Position numbers and translations under genes: made by a program. From assembly GCA_003003615.1 (NCBI GenBank), contig PVWD01000011.1, forward strand, positions 1-49,353: a DNA stretch of 49,353 nucleotides. The letters are read 5' to 3'. Under the pieces are notes generated by a model. That model was given only the letters and a program-made list of their open reading frames with translations. It had not been told where the DNA came from and ran no database searches. The DNA is from a filamentous cyanobacterium CCP2. GTDB taxonomy: Bacteria; Cyanobacteriota; Cyanobacteriia; Elainellales; Elainellaceae. Positions 1-48,387 of this stretch are shown one piece after another; position 1 is the stretch's first letter, and each line of letters starts with the position of its first letter.

Positions 1-259
1 CCCCCAGCACTGCAAAGAAATCAGGGCCTCTAAAATCGCGGTTTCGCACCTGGGATAGCCCGTAGTAGACAAACATATTGCCGCCGATGTAGCCATCCTC
101 CCGCGCATTCAGCCAGGGATGCAATGCCTCAATTAAGATATCCATTTGCATCTTATGACGCTGGCTTTCCATTGGTGCTCCGTCATCGTAGGGCAGTTCA
201 TCCTGGGTGGGTGGTAAGGTAATCCCAAATTCTTTGAGTTCAGCCGGGGTCATGGTCAT
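1..259 (-). CDS. Uma2-family endonuclease (DUF820), 5' part only
   Basis: The reading frame is open from ATG at 259 to the window edge, about 86 codons. It begins MTMTPAELKEFGITLPPTQD and contains LHPWLNAREDGYIGGNMFVYY and a GPDFFAVLG segment, typical of the N-terminal half of cyanobacterial Uma2 proteins (restriction-endonuclease-like PD-(D/E)XK fold, DUF820). The catalytic core lies beyond the window. AGGTGA sits a few bases upstream of the ATG at 259, favouring it over the ATG at 253. These proteins occur in many copies per cyanobacterial genome and their role is uncertain. A remnant of the same family lies at 1350-1553. Confidence 0.8.
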   Translation of the reverse strand, partial: MTMTPAELKEFGITLPPTQDELPYDDGAPMESQRHKMQMDILIEALHPWLNAREDGYIGGNMFVYYGLSQVRNRDFRGPDFFAVLG

Positions 260-530
260 GGGCTTCACCTACACTGCGATCGGTTCTTTTGATTGTAGCG
301 ATTTGCCAGTCTTGAAATAAGGGGGCGATCGATATCGATTTACAGTTATGTTGATCCCCCAAAAAGGTTGCCTCACCAACTCAAGCATGGACAACCACAA
401 GGGCAATCCCAGCGAATGGTATGAGGGATTGCCTGAAATGAAATAACGACCCATTGCAATGAAGCGCGATCGCACTTTAAATCTGGCAATAGAGACAGCG
501 TTAAACTGAAAAATAGCCCGATTTTTCCTA
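260..530. other. Gene-poor spacer with a HIP1 site and one copy of a 29-bp repeat
   Basis: I see no gene here that I can support; a 68-codon frame on the minus strand has no recognisable family features. The spacer holds a GCGATCGC palindrome near 466-473 and the left copy of the 29-bp direct repeat (489-517). Confidence 0.5.
489..517 (+). repeat. 29-bp direct repeat, left copy
   Basis: This 29-bp sequence (begins ATAGAGACAGCGTTAAACTG) is identical to 1264-1292. The two copies lie on the same strand and bracket the MNT/HEPN gene pair. The repeat opens with TAGAGAC, as does the GAGAC palindromic repeat family found elsewhere in the window, but is otherwise different. Confidence 0.85.
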
Positions 531-599
531 TTACAAAGTTTGCCCTTTCACCTTATCCAGAACTTGAACGATCATTGTTTTTAATTGTGGAATATCCTC

Positions 600-887
600 C
601 TATACTGTTCTCCAAATAATCTCTATCTCTGTATTGAAATAATCATGAATCAATTTATCTCGCATTCCAGCAATATCTCGCCAGGGAATATCAGGATAAT
701 GGTTTCTGACTGAATCAGGGATGCGTTTTACCGCTTCGCCAATAATTTCGATCGCCCTTGAAACTGCGAATACTTTCTCCAGGTTTTGTGAGAAATCCTC
801 AAAATTAACGCCTGTTATAAACTGCTCGATCGCTGCAATAGCATCCAGGATATCTTGCAAGTAATCTTCAATTTCTCGCTTACTCAC
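600..887 (-). CDS. HEPN-domain (DUF86/HepT-like) toxin, shortened by an in-frame amber codon
   Basis: This encodes 95 residues of a HepT-like HEPN RNase. The active-site motif RDKLIHDYF is intact (R76, H81, Y83: R-x4-H-x-Y). In characterised MntA-HepT pairs the toxin cuts RNA, and the partner nucleotidyltransferase adds AMP to the motif tyrosine. The start is GTG at 887, overlapping the stop of the MNT gene (GTGA). The frame ends at TAG 600-602, but the same frame continues EDIPQLKTMIVQVLDKVKG and ends at TAA 531-533. Those 22 codons match the usual family C-terminus, so a CAG-to-TAG change has probably removed the last helix. Whether the short protein still folds cannot be read from sequence. 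Confidence 0.85.
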
Positions 888-1177
888 AAATAGACGACCT
901 CTGCTAAGATCCGCTCTCCAATGCGAGGCTTTAAACCAGCCTTATGCACTAGATCAACCTTAACTCCTAGATTGTCGCTGAGGTAGTTTTCTAAATTGAC
1001 AAATTTCAACAGACTCGGTATCTCGGAAAACTCCACAAGCACATCCACATCGCTAGTTTCCGTCTGCTCCTGCCTCACATAAGAACCAAAAATCCCTAGT
1101 TCCTGAACTTTGTAACGTTCCTGTAAAAATGACTTGTTGTGTACAAGCCATTGCTTAATTTCCGCCAGCGTTTTCAT
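884..1177 (-). CDS. MntA-like nucleotidyltransferase antitoxin
   Basis: A 97-residue minimal nucleotidyltransferase. It carries the G-S-x10-D-x-D motif (G31-S32, D43, D45) in [20 protein letters not shown], and a third carboxylate at D75 (VKVDLV), so the active site looks complete. The family neutralises HEPN toxins by AMPylation. I chose ATG 1177 because AAGGAG lies about ten bases upstream; a longer frame begins at 1204 without such a signal. The stop overlaps the HEPN start, so the pair is one translationally coupled operon with antitoxin first. The antitoxin looks intact while its toxin partner is truncated. Confidence 0.88.
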
Positions 1178-1263
1178 CGGCTCTATCTCCTTAGAGGCAA
1201 GCACAACCCATAATCTAGCTTACCCTGCCCTGTCCTAGACATGAATTGCTTCCAACGCTGGCT

Positions 1264-1292
1264 ATAGAGACAGCGTTAAACTGAAAAATAGC
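1264..1292 (+). repeat. 29-bp direct repeat, right copy
   Basis: Identical to 489-517 and in the same orientation. It lies about 87 bp upstream of the MNT start and just before the GAGAC palindrome and the Uma2 remnant. Confidence 0.85.
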
Positions 1293-1327
1293 TAAGCTGC
1301 TCTTTACTTGCTATCCCCATTTTCGTA

Positions 1328-1350
1328 TAGACGTGAAATTTCGCGTCTCT
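1328..1350. repeat. GAGAC/GTCTC palindromic repeat
   Basis: An imperfect palindrome centred on GAAATTTCGCGTCTCT. Related copies lie at 20291-20320 (inside a gene), about 20893-20930 (diverged) and 34151-34174. The Uma2 remnant begins directly at its right edge. Confidence 0.7.
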
Positions 1351-1553
1351 CTTTACAACTACACCTCTCGGTTGAGGGAAAACTGATTGGATTCTATCGT
1401 TTAGACACCGGGGAAAAGCTGTTAATTCCCGACGAGTTAGCCGGAAACCTGCGGCAAGAAACGCAAGCAAGAGAGCAAGCCGAGGAACGCGCCGCCGAAC
1501 TAGAAGCCCAGTTAGCCCGATATCGGGAGCAGTTTGGAGAGCTTCAGGATTAA
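1350..1553 (+). pseudogene. C-terminal remnant of a Uma2-family endonuclease gene
   Basis: The translated frame reads LSLQLHLSVEGKLIGFYRL, then LIPDELAGNLRQETQAREQA and an alanine/glutamate-rich coiled coil ending in FGELQD and a stop. This is the usual C-terminal tail of cyanobacterial Uma2 proteins. The nuclease domain is missing: upstream of about 1350 the frame runs into the palindromic repeat. It is on the opposite strand from the Uma2 gene at the window's left edge, so it is not simply the other half of that gene. Confidence 0.6.
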
Positions 1554-1638
1554 CCCCTCAGATCACCTAAAATTCTTGTGTGGATTGTGGCAAACTCAAC
1601 CGTCAGGTCTGTCATTCTCCTGCGCCCTAAACTAATTT

Positions 1639-1659
1639 CCCCTACTCCCTACTCCCCCT
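1639..1659. repeat. Heptameric STRR repeat (CCCTACT type)
   Basis: About three 7-bp units of CCCTACT/CCCCCTC type lie just beyond the stop of the cyclase gene. Tandem heptamers of this kind (STRR) are known from filamentous cyanobacteria. Confidence 0.6.
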
Positions 1660-3568
1660 CACCATAATGCGCGATCGACTTATACAACCGTCCTAATTGA
1701 ATTTGCACCTTTGGCGGTAAAGAAGTGAAGTGAATGCAAAAACTTCCCTGCTCTACTTGGTGTTTCACAACTTTGGCGTAAATATCCTCACTTGCTTCAA
1801 CAAACTGATTAGATTGCAGGAGATTAAGCTTAAGGTTAGCTAATTCCGGTGGCAGGTTGCCATTACTGGGTGATGCCGGGCGAATTTCTGCTCCTTTAGT
1901 AGAGAGTTTTACCAAGTAGCCTTTTAAGTAGACATCGCTAATATGTTTACCGTCAAGGTAGGTATATTGCAACGGCAGCGGAGCAGGAATAGGGAAAAAT
2001 AGCTCTTCTTCTCTGGGTAGGTAAATATTGTAAATCCCGCTTACACCATACACTTCATAAATCGTGATGGGGGCTTTTACGCCTTTGGGCTTTACTTGCC
2101 GCTTGCCAATAATTTTGACGTTTCCGCCTGCTTCCCGGAGAGTTTCTTCTGAAATCAGAATTTGTCCACCTTGCGTATAGGACTCAATCCGGTAGGTTAA
2201 ATTCACCTGGCTACCGACAATGCCGTACTTGGTGCGTTTTTCTGAACCAATGTTGCCAACAACCACTTCTCCCGTGTTGATGCCAATGCCCATTTCCAAT
2301 AGCGGCAAGCCCATTCGCTTCATCCTTTCATTCACCGCCCCCATTGCCAACTGCATCGCACAAGCACAGACGATCGATCGTAAGGCATCATCTTCTCTGG
2401 GTGTCGGTGCCCCGAACAGCACCAGAATTCCATCTCCCATAAATTCGTCGATCGTTCCTTGGTATTGATCAATCACATCCGCCATCCGTTCCAGATAAAG
2501 ATTCAGGATGTTAATCACTTCTTCAGGAGGTAGGCGTTCCGACAAAACGGTAAAGCCGCGCAAATCAGAGGTAAGAATGGTGATCTTACGGCGTTCACCT
2601 CCTAGTTTCAGTCCTTCTGGAGTGCTAAGTAAATTTGTAACAATTTCATTGCTCAGATATCTGCCAAATACTTGCTGGATCAGTTGATTGCGTTTTTCTA
2701 AATCGCCATTTGCCTGAGCTAAATCGGCAGTGCGTTCTTTCACCCGTCCTTCCAGTTCCCTTGCGGTCTGGCGTAATTTACCAATAACGAGCGTGAGACC
2801 CGAAACGCCCAGAATTGACATTCCACCCAGCACAAACAACGTTCCGCGCAGGTGGTTACTCACCTTTGACATCAAACTGTCCAACGGTTGGCTCACTTCC
2901 CACACTCCCGCCACATCCCCCACAGCCCAATCTTTTTTGGGGCTATTAGGATGCGTATTGTGGCAAGCGACACAAGATTGTGACATGATGCTGGCTTCTC
3001 CGTAGCGCATCATACTTTTTCCATCTACGGTTTCCAGTCGCGAAAAGGAACGACGAGGATCACGACGCAAGAAATCCAGGGCATCTTGTTCAAATTTGTC
3101 CTGTGGGCCGCCCGTTCCCTCTCGCCAGGGAAAAGGATAATCGCTAAAGAACCGCACGGTGAGTTCACCATCTAAATTACTCACCCGATCGCCCAGTTCA
3201 ATCGCAAAGGTGGAAGGCAGCGGAATGCCCCCTGGCTGAGAAAGATAGGCATGGGTGACTTCAATCCCTTCTACATTTCTGGCGCGATCGGCGGCGGCAA
3301 CACTGTAAAGGTCGATCGCCTGATCAAAAGATTGGATATAGAGTGCTGCGTTTTGCACCGCTTGAGCCTCAATCAGGTTGGAAGAGAGCCATGACATATT
3401 GGATAGTGCCATGCCCATCGCAGCGCAAAATAGCAAGGTTAGCACCAGCATAATCCGCTTCAACAGAAAGTCGAAAAATCGATTCCAGAGTTGGGAAGGT
3501 GGCTGGCTCATTTTACGATCGGGATTAGAAAATTGAATAACAGGATTCATAAGGGGGGTATGACGCAT
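1649..3568 (-). CDS. Membrane class III nucleotide cyclase with Tll0287-like (DUF3365) heme domain and PilZ-like tail
   Basis: A 639-residue membrane signalling protein. Transmembrane segments at about 38-58 and 241-262 flank an extracytoplasmic DUF3365/Tll0287-like domain with a heme c motif CVACH (199-203). A short coiled linker (265-295) leads to a class III cyclase domain (about 325-505) with metal-binding D335 (TSDLRGFT) and D379 (EFMGDG) and the conserved N456 (SQVNLTYRIES). The purine-selecting lysine position holds E375 and the usual aspartate/cysteine position holds glycine (YGIVG), so substrate choice between ATP and GTP is unclear. Residues about 515-639 resemble PilZ (LSTKGAEIR). 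No clear ribosome site marks the start; M7 and M20 are alternatives. It is divergent from the STAND gene at 3771. Confidence 0.88.
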   Translation of the reverse strand: MRHTPLMNPVIQFSNPDRKMSQPPSQLWNRFFDFLLKRIMLVLTLLFCAAMGMALSNMSWLSSNLIEAQAVQNAALYIQSFDQAIDLYSVAAADRARNVEGIEVTHAYLSQPGGIPLPSTFAIELGDRVSNLDGELTVRFFSDYPFPWREGTGGPQDKFEQDALDFLRRDPRRSFSRLETVDGKSMMRYGEASIMSQSCVACHNTHPNSPKKDWAVGDVAGVWEVSQPLDSLMSKVSNHLRGTLFVLGGMSILGVSGLTLVIGKLRQTARELEGRVKERTADLAQANGDLEKRNQLIQQVFGRYLSNEIVTNLLSTPEGLKLGGERRKITILTSDLRGFTVLSERLPPEEVINILNLYLERMADVIDQYQGTIDEFMGDGILVLFGAPTPREDDALRSIVCACAMQLAMGAVNERMKRMGLPLLEMGIGINTGEVVVGNIGSEKRTKYGIVGSQVNLTYRIESYTQGGQILISEETLREAGGNVKIIGKRQVKPKGVKAPITIYEVYGVSGIYNIYLPREEELFFPIPAPLPLQYTYLDGKHISDVYLKGYLVKLSTKGAEIRPASPSNGNLPPELANLKLNLLQSNQFVEASEDIYAKVVKHQVEQGSFCIHFTSLPPKVQIQLGRLYKSIAHYGEGE

Positions 3569-3770: not shown

Positions 3771-6700
3771 ATGGATTTAGAAGACGCGCTTAACTTTACA
3801 GATGCTTTAGTATTTGCCGAGTCAGGAACTCATCTGAGCGATCTCCAACAGGTTTTGCTGCGAGAATCCTGGTCGCTGGAACGGCGTAGCTATGACCAAA
3901 TTGCAGATGCTTACGGCTATTCCCCAACCTATTTAAAGCATGATGTGGGGCCAAAACTTTGGAAGTTACTCTCAGATGTTTTGGGTGAAAAGGTTAATAA
4001 AACTAGCTTTCGCACGGCGATCGAGCGGCGATTTCAGAAAGAAGGAGGAACGGTTCCAATTCTTCCTTCCCCTACATTGCCCTCTTCACAGCCGATCGAT
4101 CCCTCAGCCTCCCAATTTCCTGCCACTCCACAACTTTCACCTCATCAGGACTGGGGCGAAGCAGTAGATGTCAGCTTTTTCTATGGACGAAACGCAGAAC
4201 TGACCCAACTCAAGCAATGGATTGTCGCCGATCGCTGCCGTTTGATTGCAGTATTGGGCATGGGAGGAATGGGTAAAACATCACTGGTGGTGAAGTTGGG
4301 GCGGGAGTTGGTGAAGGAATCGGGAGTCGGGAGCGGGTTTGAGTTTGTGATTTGGCGATCGTTACGGAATGCGCCGCCTTTGGATGAACTGCTAACAGAC
4401 TTGCTGCATCGTTTGTCAGATCAGTTGGAGCAGCTAGACTCGGTAGAGATAGATTCAGAATCTGTGGCGGCAAAGCTATTGCAAGTGATGAACATTGTGC
4501 GATCGCGGCGTTGCCTCATCCTGTTTGATAATGTGGAGACGCTGTTTCAAACGAGTGAGCCTCTGGCTGCTACGACCCGCACCCAACAGTATCGAGCAGG
4601 TTATGCAGAATACGGTGAGCTATTTAGGCAAATGGGTGAAACGGTTCATTCAAGCTGTTTGCTCTTAACCAGCCGTGAGAAACCTCAGGAGGTTGCTTTT
4701 TTAGAGGGAGAAGCACTACCCGTTCGATCGCTTGTTTTGAAAGGGTTGCAGCCAGAGGAAGGGCAAGAAATTGTTCAACTCAAAGGCTCATTTCAAGGAA
4801 CAAATGCGGAATGGCAACGGCTCATTGCAGGTTATTCAGGAAATCCTTTGGCGTTGAAAATCATTTCGGCAACGATTCAAACCCTTTTTGATGGTAATAT
4901 TGCTGACTTCTTGCAGCAAAATACATTTGTTTTTGGTAATATTCGATCACTGGTTGACGAACAGTTTGCTAACCTGCCTAAGATCGAGAAAACAATTTTA
5001 TATTGGTTAGCAATTTATCGAGAGCCTGTAAGCTTTTCGACATTGCGATCGGATATTTTTCCGCCCATTTCTCCTCAAATTTTGATTGAAACATTAGAAT
5101 CACTGGAACACCGATCGCTGATTGAAAAAAACACGTCTTATTTTTCATTGCAGCCCGTTGTGATGGAATATGCAACCGATCAGTTAATAGAACAAATTTG
5201 TGAGGAAATTCAGTCCAGCTTTGCCTCATCTTCCGTAACGTATCTATTGCTCAAAAACCTTGCCCTGCTCAAAACGCAAGCCAAAGATTACATTCGTGAA
5301 ACGCAAGTTCGCCTCGTCCTACAACCCATCCTCGATCGGTTACGGGAGGCATTTGTTCATCTCTCTCTCATCGAAGAGACCCTTTTACAAAGGCTGTCTG
5401 AACTTCGTCACAAACCATCTTTAGAAGTGGGTTATGCAGGTGGAAACTTACTCAATTTACTGTGTCAACTGCAACCTCACTTACAAAATTATGACCTTTC
5501 AGCATTAACCATCTGGCAAGCCAATCTTCAAAACGTTACCTTGCAGAATGTTGATTTAACTAACTCAGACCTGAGTAACTCTATTTTTGCTGAAACATTA
5601 GGAATTGTGTTTTGTGTGGCTTTTAGCCCAGATGGAACTTATTTAGCAACGGGGGACGCAGAGGGCGGACTGCGACTTTGGCAGGTAGAAGATGGCAAAC
5701 TGCTGATGGATTTTGAGGGGCACATTGGCTGGGTTTGGTCGATCGCCTTTAGTGCGGATGGTCAACGCCTTGCTAGTTGCAGTAGCGATAAGACGATTCG
5801 GATATGGGAGGTTGCAACCGGGCAATGTCTCCATACCTTGCGCGGTCATCAAAGTTCCGTTTGGGCAGTTGCCTTTAGTGCGGATGGTCAGCTTTTGGCC
5901 AGTGGCGGTGATGAACCAACCGTAAGGCTTTGGAATGCCCATACTGGAGAATGCCTTAAGACACTATCAGGTCATACAGGTCGGATTTTAACCGTTCAAT
6001 TTGGTGGAACATCTCAACTTTTAGCAAGCGGCAGCGATGATCAAACCATTAAACTATGGAATACTGAAACTAAAGAATGTGTTCACACCCTAACAGGACA
6101 TACAAACCGAATTTGGTCAGTTTGCTTTAGTTCAGATCATCAAACTCTTATAAGCGGCAGTGCCGACAGCACAATTAAACGATGGAACATTAGCACGGGT
6201 GAATGTATTGATACCTTCAGCGAACATTCTGATCGAGTGCGATCGGTTATGTTAAGTGCGGATGGAAAGACATTATGTAGTGGCAGTGATGATCATACAG
6301 TGCGAATCTGGAATTCAGATACTGGAGAATGCTCCAGCGTGTTACGTGGTCATATAAATTCAGTGTTCTCTGTGACATTAAATTCCAACGATCGCATCAT
6401 TGCCAGTGGCAGTGCCGATCAAACTGTGCGATTCTGGAATGCTGGAACTGGAGCCTGTTTGAAGACCCTCAAAGGATACACAAATTCTATATTTTCTATC
6501 ATGGTCAGCCCCGACGGGCAAACGATCGCCAGTGGCAGTACCGATCAGACGATTCGATTGTGGAATATGAACACAGGTCAGTGCGATCGGGTTTTACAAG
6601 GGCATACAGGCTGGGTCACTTCAGTGGCATTTCATCCCCAAGGAAATCTCCTTGCCAGCAGCAGTGCTGATCAAACGGTGCGAATCTGGTCAACTCGTTC

Positions 6701-32781: not shown

Positions 32782-34152
32782 ATGCAAACCGACACGATCG
32801 CCGCTATTGCTACCGCCATTGTTCCTCAACAGGGGAGCGTTGGTATTGTGCGGGTGTCTGGGGCAGAGGCAGTGTCGATCGCGCAAAAGCTGTTCCATGC
32901 TCCTGGTTCTCAACCCTGGGAGAGCCATCGGATTTTGTATGGGTATGTGCACCATCCCCAGTCTAGAGCAGTAGTGGATGAAGCTTTGCTGCTGTTGATG
33001 CTGGCTCCCCGTTCCTATACCCGTGAGGATGTCGTAGAATTTCACTGTCATGGGGGAATCATGGCTGTGCAGCAGGTTTTGCAGTTGTGTTTGGAGCAGG
33101 GGGCAAGACTGGCACAACCCGGAGAGTTTACCCTCAGAGCCTTTTTAAATGGGCGGTTAGACTTGACCCAGGCGGAAAGTATTGCTGATTTGGTTGGGGC
33201 ACAGTCACCGCAAGCAGCACAGTCTGCTCTAGCGGGCTTACAGGGAAAACTCGCCCACCCAATTCGGCAACTGCGATCGACCTGTTTGGACATTTTGGCA
33301 GAAGTGGAAGCCCGGATCGACTTTGAAGACGACCTACCGCCTTTAGATGAGGATTGGGTCAAAGGGCAGTTAGCTCAAGTTTTGGCAGAGGTTGAACAAA
33401 TTTTGTCTACCGCCGATCGGGGAGCATTACTGCGAACGGGGCTAAAAGTGGCGATCGTGGGTCGTCCGAATGTGGGAAAGTCAAGCTTGCTGAACGCCTG
33501 GAGTCGGAGCGATCGGGCAATTGTGACAGATTTGCCGGGAACCACTCGCGATGTGGTGGAATCACAGCTTGTGGTAGGCGGAATTCCAATTCAGGTGCTT
33601 GATACCGCAGGCATTCGGGAGGCAGCCGATCAAGTGGAAAAAATTGGCGTGGAACGATCGCGCCTTGCCGCTCAGACTGCTGATTTGGTGCTGCTGACAA
33701 TCGATGCTCAGGCAGGCTGGACGGATGCCGATCAGGAAATTTATGACCAGGTGAAGCATCGTCCATTGATTTTAGTGATTAACAAAGTTGATTTGGTTGA
33801 ACCTGATGCATTGCCGCGCTACCCTGTTGCCATCTCCTATCTCGTCAAAACGGCTGCTGCCCAAAATCAGGGGATTGATGAACTAGAGCAAACCATTCTG
33901 GCTACAGTGCAACTGGGGGCTGTACAGGCTGCCAACCTCGACTTTGCCATTAATCAACGTCAAGCAGCCGCCATCACCTCAGCGAAAACCGCACTTCAGC
34001 AAGTCCAACAAACGATCGCAGACCAAATGCCCCTGGACTTTTGGACGATCGACCTGAGGCTGGCGATTCAGGCGTTAGGTGAAATCACAGGCGAAGAGAT
34101 TACAGAATCGGTATTAGATCAAATTTTTAGTCGGTTTTGTATTGGAAAATAG
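32782..34152 (+). CDS. mnmE: tRNA uridine-5-carboxymethylaminomethyl(34) synthesis GTPase MnmE
   Basis: A 456-residue MnmE, which with MnmG modifies U34 of tRNAs. An N-terminal tetrahydrofolate-binding domain (about 1-118, with CHGG at 89-92) and a helical domain flank a GTPase: P-loop GRPNVGKSS (227-235), DTAG (274-277), NKVD (334-337). The chain ends in the conserved FCIGK with the essential cysteine. The length matches the family. The start lies directly behind STRR DNA, and the TAG stop is the first part of a GAGAC palindromic repeat. Direct copies of the GGCATCTTGCC repeat flank the gene. Confidence 0.96.
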
Positions 34153-34174
34153 AGACACGAAATTTCGCATCTCT
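34151..34174. repeat. GAGAC palindromic repeat at the mnmE stop codon
   Basis: AGAGACACGAAATTTCGCAT followed by CTCT. The preceding T at 34150 and the first AG of the repeat make the mnmE stop codon TAG. Confidence 0.7.
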
Positions 34175-47631: not shown

Positions 47632-48387
47632 TTACAAGAATCCTTCCAGCTCTAAATCTTCAATGACCTGTAAGCCTCGTGGGTCGCCAACTTTGAGGAC
47701 TGCTGCTCTAGCATCCTCCCGGACACCCATTTCCCCATCTTCCACAAAGGCTTCAATCAGAGCATCGATCGCAGTGGCATAGACAATATTGGACGGTAAC
47801 TCTCGGCACAGTTGTCCGATCGCCCAAGCGCAATTGCTGCGAACGGCCGAAACTGGGTCACGTCTTAGCCCTTCAATGAGGGGAGGAATGGCACTCACCG
47901 TTACCTCATATCCCACATAGGCCATTTGAGCCAATGCGCTGGCCGCCCAAAGCCGTACTGCAGAGACATCAGTTCGTAAAGCGTCTACAAGCGGTTCCAA
48001 CGAGCGACGATCGCGGCAGTTTCCCAAGGCCCAGACAATTCCCTTACGGACATAGCCATTCCAGTCCCACTGCAATTGGGCAATGAGTGGGTCTACCGCA
48101 GATGGGTGAGGGTTCCGCCCTAAACCGTAGGCCGCACTGACCCGAATCAGGGGGCAAGCATCGGTTAGTAGCCGAATCAGATGGGGGATAGCGCGTTTAT
48201 CTTCTAACTCACAGAATGCTCGCGCTGCAAGCATTCGCTGCTGATTATCGGCAGATTCCAGCAGAACCAGCATTACATCTGGATCAGGCTTCGCTGCTTC
48301 GTCTTCAGCATCTTCTAATCCCACCTGGTCAAGGGGATCAAGCTCAATTTCGGCATTGAGTACTGTGAGATCGTCATTGTCATACAT
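47632..48387 (-). CDS. HEAT-repeat protein
   Basis: A 251-residue protein. After an acidic 40-residue N-terminus, about six HEAT units follow (AIPHLIRLLTDACPLIRVSA, YVRKGIVWALGNCRDRRSLE, SAVRSNCAWAIGQLCRELPS). Such alpha-solenoids bind proteins; related cyanobacterial HEAT proteins include bilin lyases (CpcE/F type), but this sequence does not point clearly to that role. No operon partner is evident; the gene is divergent from the DICT sensor. Confidence 0.85.
   Translation of the reverse strand: MYDNDDLTVLNAEIELDPLDQVGLEDAEDEAAKPDPDVMLVLLESADNQQRMLAARAFCELEDKRAIPHLIRLLTDACPLIRVSAAYGLGRNPHPSAVDPLIAQLQWDWNGYVRKGIVWALGNCRDRRSLEPLVDALRTDVSAVRLWAASALAQMAYVGYEVTVSAIPPLIEGLRRDPVSAVRSNCAWAIGQLCRELPSNIVYATAIDALIEAFVEDGEMGVREDARAAVLKVGDPRGLQVIEDLELEGFL

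Follow-up and report, generated by a model that had tools for sequence, protein, structure and literature searches.

Insertion accompanied by a long target duplication has been described for restriction-modification genes of Helicobacter pylori (Nobusato et al. 2000, as cited in PMC1643837, PMC3874152, and PMC3031569), and the target duplications of restriction-modification units are long and variable, at ~100 bp (PMC3874152, PMC1643837). In cyanobacteria, Microcystis aeruginosa PCC 7806 has a ParD/ParE-like module with a 152-bp direct repeat on either side (PMC7935541). High mobility is on record for MNT-HEPN modules, which in Deinococcus and Thermus have recently inserted in individual strains (PMC2701414), and Escherichia coli can recombine 46-bp FRT repeats across a distance of 886 bp in a RecA-independent way (PMC5426353). 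Here we describe, in a stretch of 49,353 nucleotides of cyanobacterial DNA (the window), an MntA/HepT pair fenced by two direct repeats, and we report as new the recurrent bracketing of MNT/HEPN modules by locus-specific direct repeats in other cyanobacteria. These observations bear on the question of how toxin-antitoxin pairs that have neither transposase nor integrase reach new chromosomes.

The repeat pair and the genes it encloses

The window is contig C45 of the 6.95-Mb assembly G000 (528 contigs), taken from its first base, that is, at a contig end. An earlier note on this DNA had pointed to two identical, co-oriented 29-bp copies (ATAGAGACAGCGTTAAACTGAAAAATAGC), which are indeed present and form part of a longer, 35-nt repeat whose copies agree at 34 of 35 positions (one mismatch) with a start-to-start spacing of 775 (Table 1). 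Outside these 35 nt similarity ends abruptly, the adjoining sequences differ on both sides of each copy, and the two flanks are similar neither to each other nor to the insert. The chance expectation for two such copies was 0.00 in shuffles of the window and ~1.7e-4 for the whole genome. The search of the 29-mer in genome and relatives that the earlier note had proposed retrieved these two copies only in the assembly, at up to three mismatches over 29 nt, and none in 145 relatives; the inner 21 nt of the repeat, also at up to three mismatches, returned the same two genome copies. A 22-mer from the repeat had zero exact matches in 84,980 species genomes and likewise zero in IMG/VR, and an Rfam search of window positions 1-1800 gave no match. 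With two genome copies and none elsewhere in the collections searched, the sequence is therefore neither a dispersed repeat, the finding that would have spoken against the earlier note, nor a site common to mobile toxin-antitoxin cassettes, an idea of the same note that has to be abandoned: the sequence found in the window is confined to it, and the repeats around the other bracketed modules are specific to their respective loci.

Table 1. Positions of the repeats, genes, and flanking remnants in the window
Feature	Positions	Strand	Details
Left repeat copy	483-517	+	35 nt, CTGGCAATAGAGACAGCGTTAAACTGAAAAATAGC; 29-nt identical core 489-517
Right repeat copy	1258-1292	+	35 nt, CTGGCTATAGAGACAGCGTTAAACTGAAAAATAGC; 29-nt identical core 1264-1292
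Insert between repeats	518-1257	n/a	740 bp
Conserved core of insert	532-1236	-	nucleotide similarity to MNT/HEPN modules of other cyanobacterial genera
HepT-like HEPN ribonuclease toxin gene	531-887	-	RDKLIHDY = RX4HXY motif; Pfam PF01934, 1.7e-25
MntA-like minimal nucleotidyltransferase antitoxin gene	884-1204	-	GSX10DXD motif; NTP_transf_2, Pfam PF01909, 1.2e-13
Left flank remnant reading frame	357-440	+	MDNHKGNPSEWYEGLP; 77%-identical match in G030 (L033 1826-1903)
Right flank, C-terminal third of Uma2-family gene	1335-1553	+	matches residues 166-250 of the 251-aa L033 Uma2
Dispersed palindromic repeat	1314-1351	n/a	AGACGTGAAATTTCGCGTCT type; many genome copies; separate from the bracketing repeats

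ORF and Pfam analyses of the insert uncovered MntA and HepT as its only genes, in keeping with the earlier statement that the repeats enclose this pair and nothing else (HepT-like and NTP_transf_2 Pfam hits between them). Its GC content is 41.4% vs 48.7% for the window, within the lowest 1.6% of 740-nt windows, and module GC was below flank GC in 27 of 28 close homologs, window included. Neither a recombinase nor a transposase was found among the insert ORFs, and a search for terminal inverted repeats yielded a score of 8 where shuffled sequence had a median of 11, on which grounds a classical transposon insertion was discarded. Similarity to other modules is confined to the conserved core (L012 matches 571-1236; L015 matches 532-575 and 864-1222); between this core and the repeats lie just 14 and 21 bp, so that the repeats frame a conserved unit closely.

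The MntA and HepT ORFs overlap by 4 nt and encode, in one operon, an RX4HXY HEPN protein and a GSX10DXD MNT protein, as in the HepT-MntA type VII family; their scores fall below the NCBIfam equivalog cut-offs (NF047751/NF047752). The antitoxin gene is intact and starts at either GTG 1204 or ATG 1177. In type VII systems of this kind, the RNase activity of the toxin is neutralized by AMPylation. The window HepT gene carries a single in-frame TAG at 600-602, which confines the ORF to 95 aa (600-887). The earlier note spoke of a lost toxin tail; this tail does lie inside the insert, but it is cut off by that one codon, and positions 531-599 continue in frame through 22 intact codons to the stop at 531-533. 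The codons past the TAG resemble the tails of homologs, so that HepT inactivation looks recent. At another locus (L015/L037, G024:C505), HepT is mostly deleted (window-equivalent 576-863) and MntA is intact.

Flanks of the window module and its sisters in other genomes

The left flank of the window module holds a remnant reading frame, and the right flank a Uma2-family gene missing its first ~165 codons. Both have counterparts in G030, a genome of another genus of the same family, in which a complete Uma2 gene (L033; Uma2 by Pfam PF05685) begins 102 bp past the remnant and in the same orientation, with no toxin-antitoxin genes between the two. Given this colinearity without the module, the window module sits within a remnant-Uma2 order that predates it, and, as G030 keeps the Uma2 5' part lost in the window, the insertion or a later event also deleted ~0.5 kb. 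Of the loci compared, that of G030 comes closest to an empty site of the window module, yet it is too diverged for a clean one. In its 102-bp gap, a weak match to the left copy at 10/11 positions (shuffle p 0.02; equaled by 6% of other stretches, p ~0.02-0.08) is only suggestive, and nothing there convincingly passes for a single 35-mer. No clean empty site for the window was found in the genomes searched, among which its genus is represented by one genome. The adjacent adenylate cyclase gene, to the right, has orthologs that are 66-71% identical and followed by unrelated downstream DNA, so cyclase synteny provided no empty site either. A dispersed palindrome, independent of the bracketing repeats, lies where the Uma2 remnant breaks off on its 5' side; palindromes of this type (GTAGAGACG..AAATTTC..CGTCTCTAC) also occur at 34151-34174 and 48004-48027.

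We surveyed cyanobacterial genomes for other MNT/HEPN modules and obtained 76 loci besides the window, with usable flanks for 75 modules including the window (74 others), and scored a module as bracketed when local alignment of its two 400-bp flanks reached at least 44. Direct repeats were evident within 400 bp at 7/75 modules (6/74 if the window is not counted), whereas no module had inverted ones; among random 665-bp windows, 1.8% had direct and 0.2% had inverted repeats. When the distance from either end was limited to 150 bp, direct repeats were retained at 4/74 other modules and inverted ones at 0, as compared to a background of 0.3-0.5% elsewhere. Same-locus control windows scored 7/2976 (0.24%) at 150 bp, which renders a binomial p of 3e-5 vs 4/74 in a survey set that is phylogenetically non-independent, confined to the MNT/HEPN family, and set against controls from two kinds of loci. 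Loci with similarly distant cyclase-search matches served here as flank background, not for synteny. When G144 is left out, 3/74 modules remain bracketed within 150 bp, and ~92-95% of the sister modules have no repeats. The repeats at L158 and L183, which resemble starts of paralogous small genes, and those at L137, which are HIP1-type palindromes, were left out as brackets. Order- and family-level searches gained hardly any further modules, and the modules found in a plasmid search were all below 60% identity.

The sister repeats measure 138 (G294), 75 (G329), 68 (G205), 60 (G181), 47 (G089), and ~39 nt (G144). Their sequences differ from locus to locus, none equals that of the window, and several pairs are only 81-90% identical. 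Four genomes (G294, G181, G089, and G144) contain exactly two copies of their own repeat, and G205 contains three, all within 7 kb. The same bracketed layout appears in genomes of one or two contigs, e.g., G089 and G329.

At the G329 locus, the left repeat copy coincides with the end of a P-type ATPase gene, and this 3' end is present once and without a module in the two congeners G348 and G217. In G348, the ATPase 3' end runs directly into DNA resembling the G329 right flank (86% over 113 bp, repeat included), and in G217 right-flank-like DNA (69%) resumes ~66 bp past the single copy. The two G329 copies differ by 15%, about the ortholog divergence between species. The earlier suggestion that the repeats may mark the arrival of the module is thus plausible, as sisters are bracketed alike and one of them has these single-copy congener sites. 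In the surrounding island (L267/L268, G329:C1:5905001-5945000), the 75-bp ATPase 3' end recurs between unrelated genes (L267 5681, 6546, and 9960 onward). These extra copies, 78-93% identical, frame other genes, the MNT/HEPN module being the first insert, so the ATPase gene end is apparently an insertion hot spot, as judged from its local copies.

Other sister loci differ in their surroundings. At L175 (G205) and L165 (G181), DUF4351-containing genes end in the repeat or directly before it, so nuclease-like DUF4351 genes recur beside insertions. In G144 and G150, the ~39-nt repeat also lies directly upstream of neighboring toxin-antitoxin operons, in a leader-like position. The G150 locus (L271, G150:C114:45000-53000) is a toxin-antitoxin array amid type I restriction-modification genes with repeats at 4102-4136, 4990-5028, and 5685-5723, and its repeat is the one that brackets the G144 module. 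As this repeat doubles as an operon leader, the bracketed cases need not all be target duplications. Finally, L153/L210 (G100:C2 near 1687133-1689021) is a tandem duplication of 1643-bp period that includes the MntA gene and ~350 bp of near-identical sequence.

Readings of the bracketed structure

We favor, at slightly better than even confidence, an insertion with a long, variable, and locus-specific target duplication as the origin of the window structure. A 0.74-kb MntA/HepT unit without a mobility gene of its own would have entered between the remnant gene and the Uma2-family gene, leaving a 35-bp duplication of local sequence with one copy per side. We infer that the insertion also gave rise to both copies of the repeat, through recombination or repair that would have joined the incoming DNA across a break with ends staggered by ~35 nt, or have proceeded by template switching, with the filling-in of single-stranded ends presumably doubling the local sequence. 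What is observed at the window comprises the identity of the repeats, their uniqueness in the genome, their tight fit around the module, the foreign-like composition of the insert, its lack of a recombinase and of terminal inverted repeats, and the colinear flanks of G030 without the module. The sisters add the same architecture with differing locus-specific repeats, and single-copy module-free sites for G329 only. As in long target duplications, the duplicated stretches are direct, tens to hundreds of bp long, made of local, non-dispersed sequence, and variable in length and sequence between insertions; a single-copy relative free of the insert exists for the G329 module (G348 and G217), and the nearest counterpart for the window is the diverged, module-free G030 locus. 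The earlier note had called 29 bp long for a target duplication, which is right for transposons but not for restriction-modification units, where it is ~100 bp and variable (PMC3874152, PMC1643837). Against insertion with target duplication stand the want of a clean empty site for the window, the loss in the window of the Uma2 5' part seen in G030, the large majority of sisters without repeats, the leader role of the G144/G150 repeat, and the imperfect identity of several sister pairs, which is easier to understand with a donor-derived second copy.

This last observation is better explained by the main rival, crossover over short homology with a donor, in which circular or one-end-anchored foreign DNA carrying the module and a homolog of the resident 35-mer would have integrated in Campbell fashion, with or without RecA, to leave a native copy on one side and a donor copy on the other. 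Such a crossover fits the direct orientation, variable length, and locus specificity of the repeats as well as the missing recombinase, and it accounts for the loci whose copies have diverged and for G329, with its two copies at interspecies distance and its further variants in the island. However, 35 bp is short for homologous recombination, the window copies are 97% identical, and the 35-mer turned up in no donor or other genome searched; we hold this reading to be unlikely for the window. The leader-like repeats ahead of successive operons in G144 and G150, together with the duplicated MNT module of G100, would fit a different history, in which the 35-mer was a spacer or leader between the modules of an array or tandem duplication that has lost all modules except one. 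Neither window flank retains a trace of a second module, though, and, as we read the sequence, the conserved upstream zone 1205-1236 separates the right copy from the module genes, this copy includes no ribosome-binding site, and no recognizable gene follows the left copy, which makes an array remnant distinctly improbable.

Short identical direct repeats set tightly around a single cassette also evoke attachment sites of a recombinase acting in trans (integron-like, Xer/dif-like, or a tyrosine integrase), with the module as an excisable cassette. Indeed, the right copy forms a 7-bp hairpin with its flank, and GTTAAAC within the repeat fits the integron core GTTRRRY, a match that we estimate at ~4-5% chance per 29-mer on either strand. 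The left copy forms no hairpin, however, the sequence is not common to the other bracketed modules, no recombinase or integrase was seen among the G329 island ORFs, and absence of the repeat from the rest of the genome and from 84,980 species leaves such an enzyme no other site. We consider a recombinase in trans very improbable, and an integron cassette or shared attachment site was rejected on the uniqueness of the sequence in the genome and the collections searched. An assembly artefact or chance local repeats might be suspected in a draft of 528 contigs with the window beginning at a contig end, but chance is negligible in shuffles, 35 nt is below the usual assembly k-mers, the sequences adjoining the copies differ on both sides, and the layout recurs in the one- or two-contig genomes G089 and G329, all of which makes this explanation hardly credible.

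Beyond the window, insertion with target duplication invites a broader conjecture that we regard as quite unlikely: small toxin-antitoxin pairs may travel as bare pairs of genes along an insertion route of their own, which would duplicate 35-140 bp of target at every insertion and might be promoted by the damage inflicted by the toxin itself or by the resident nucleases (DUF4351- and Uma2-family) that adjoin several insertions. By analogy with the E. coli repeats of 46 bp that recombine over 886 bp (PMC5426353), loss of the module by recombination between the window copies is plausible. The footprint can be searched for in genomes, and such searches could serve to measure how often, where, and by what mechanism these pairs insert.

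Relation to described systems

The window module shares gene order, domains, and the RX4HXY and GSX10DXD motifs with the HepT-MntA type VII family (PMC2701414, NCBIfam NF047751/NF047752), and departs from it in the one stop of its toxin gene and in its sub-cut-off scores. Short direct repeats around an element devoid of a recombinase are likewise found at the E. coli H47 genomic island, which can excise; this island differs in being much larger and in having 146-bp repeats of 77% identity (PMC5426353). The Microcystis ParD/ParE module is likewise a cyanobacterial toxin-antitoxin pair fenced by co-oriented direct repeats, identical there and 34/35 in the window. It belongs to another toxin-antitoxin family, occurs in three strains, and has longer repeats that contain inverted repeats (PMC7935541); the accessible part of that study offers no insertion model. 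As summarized in later papers, the H. pylori restriction-modification insertions differ from the window in gene content and host (an MntA/HepT pair in a cyanobacterium), in the length of the duplication (~100 bp vs 35 nt), and in the same-species empty site that the window lacks. Both consist of a small addiction-type gene pair without a recombinase, placed between long, variable, and locus-specific direct duplications. A locus-unique duplication that recurs around a toxin-antitoxin pair in several unrelated cyanobacteria links these modules to the long target duplications of restriction-modification genes.
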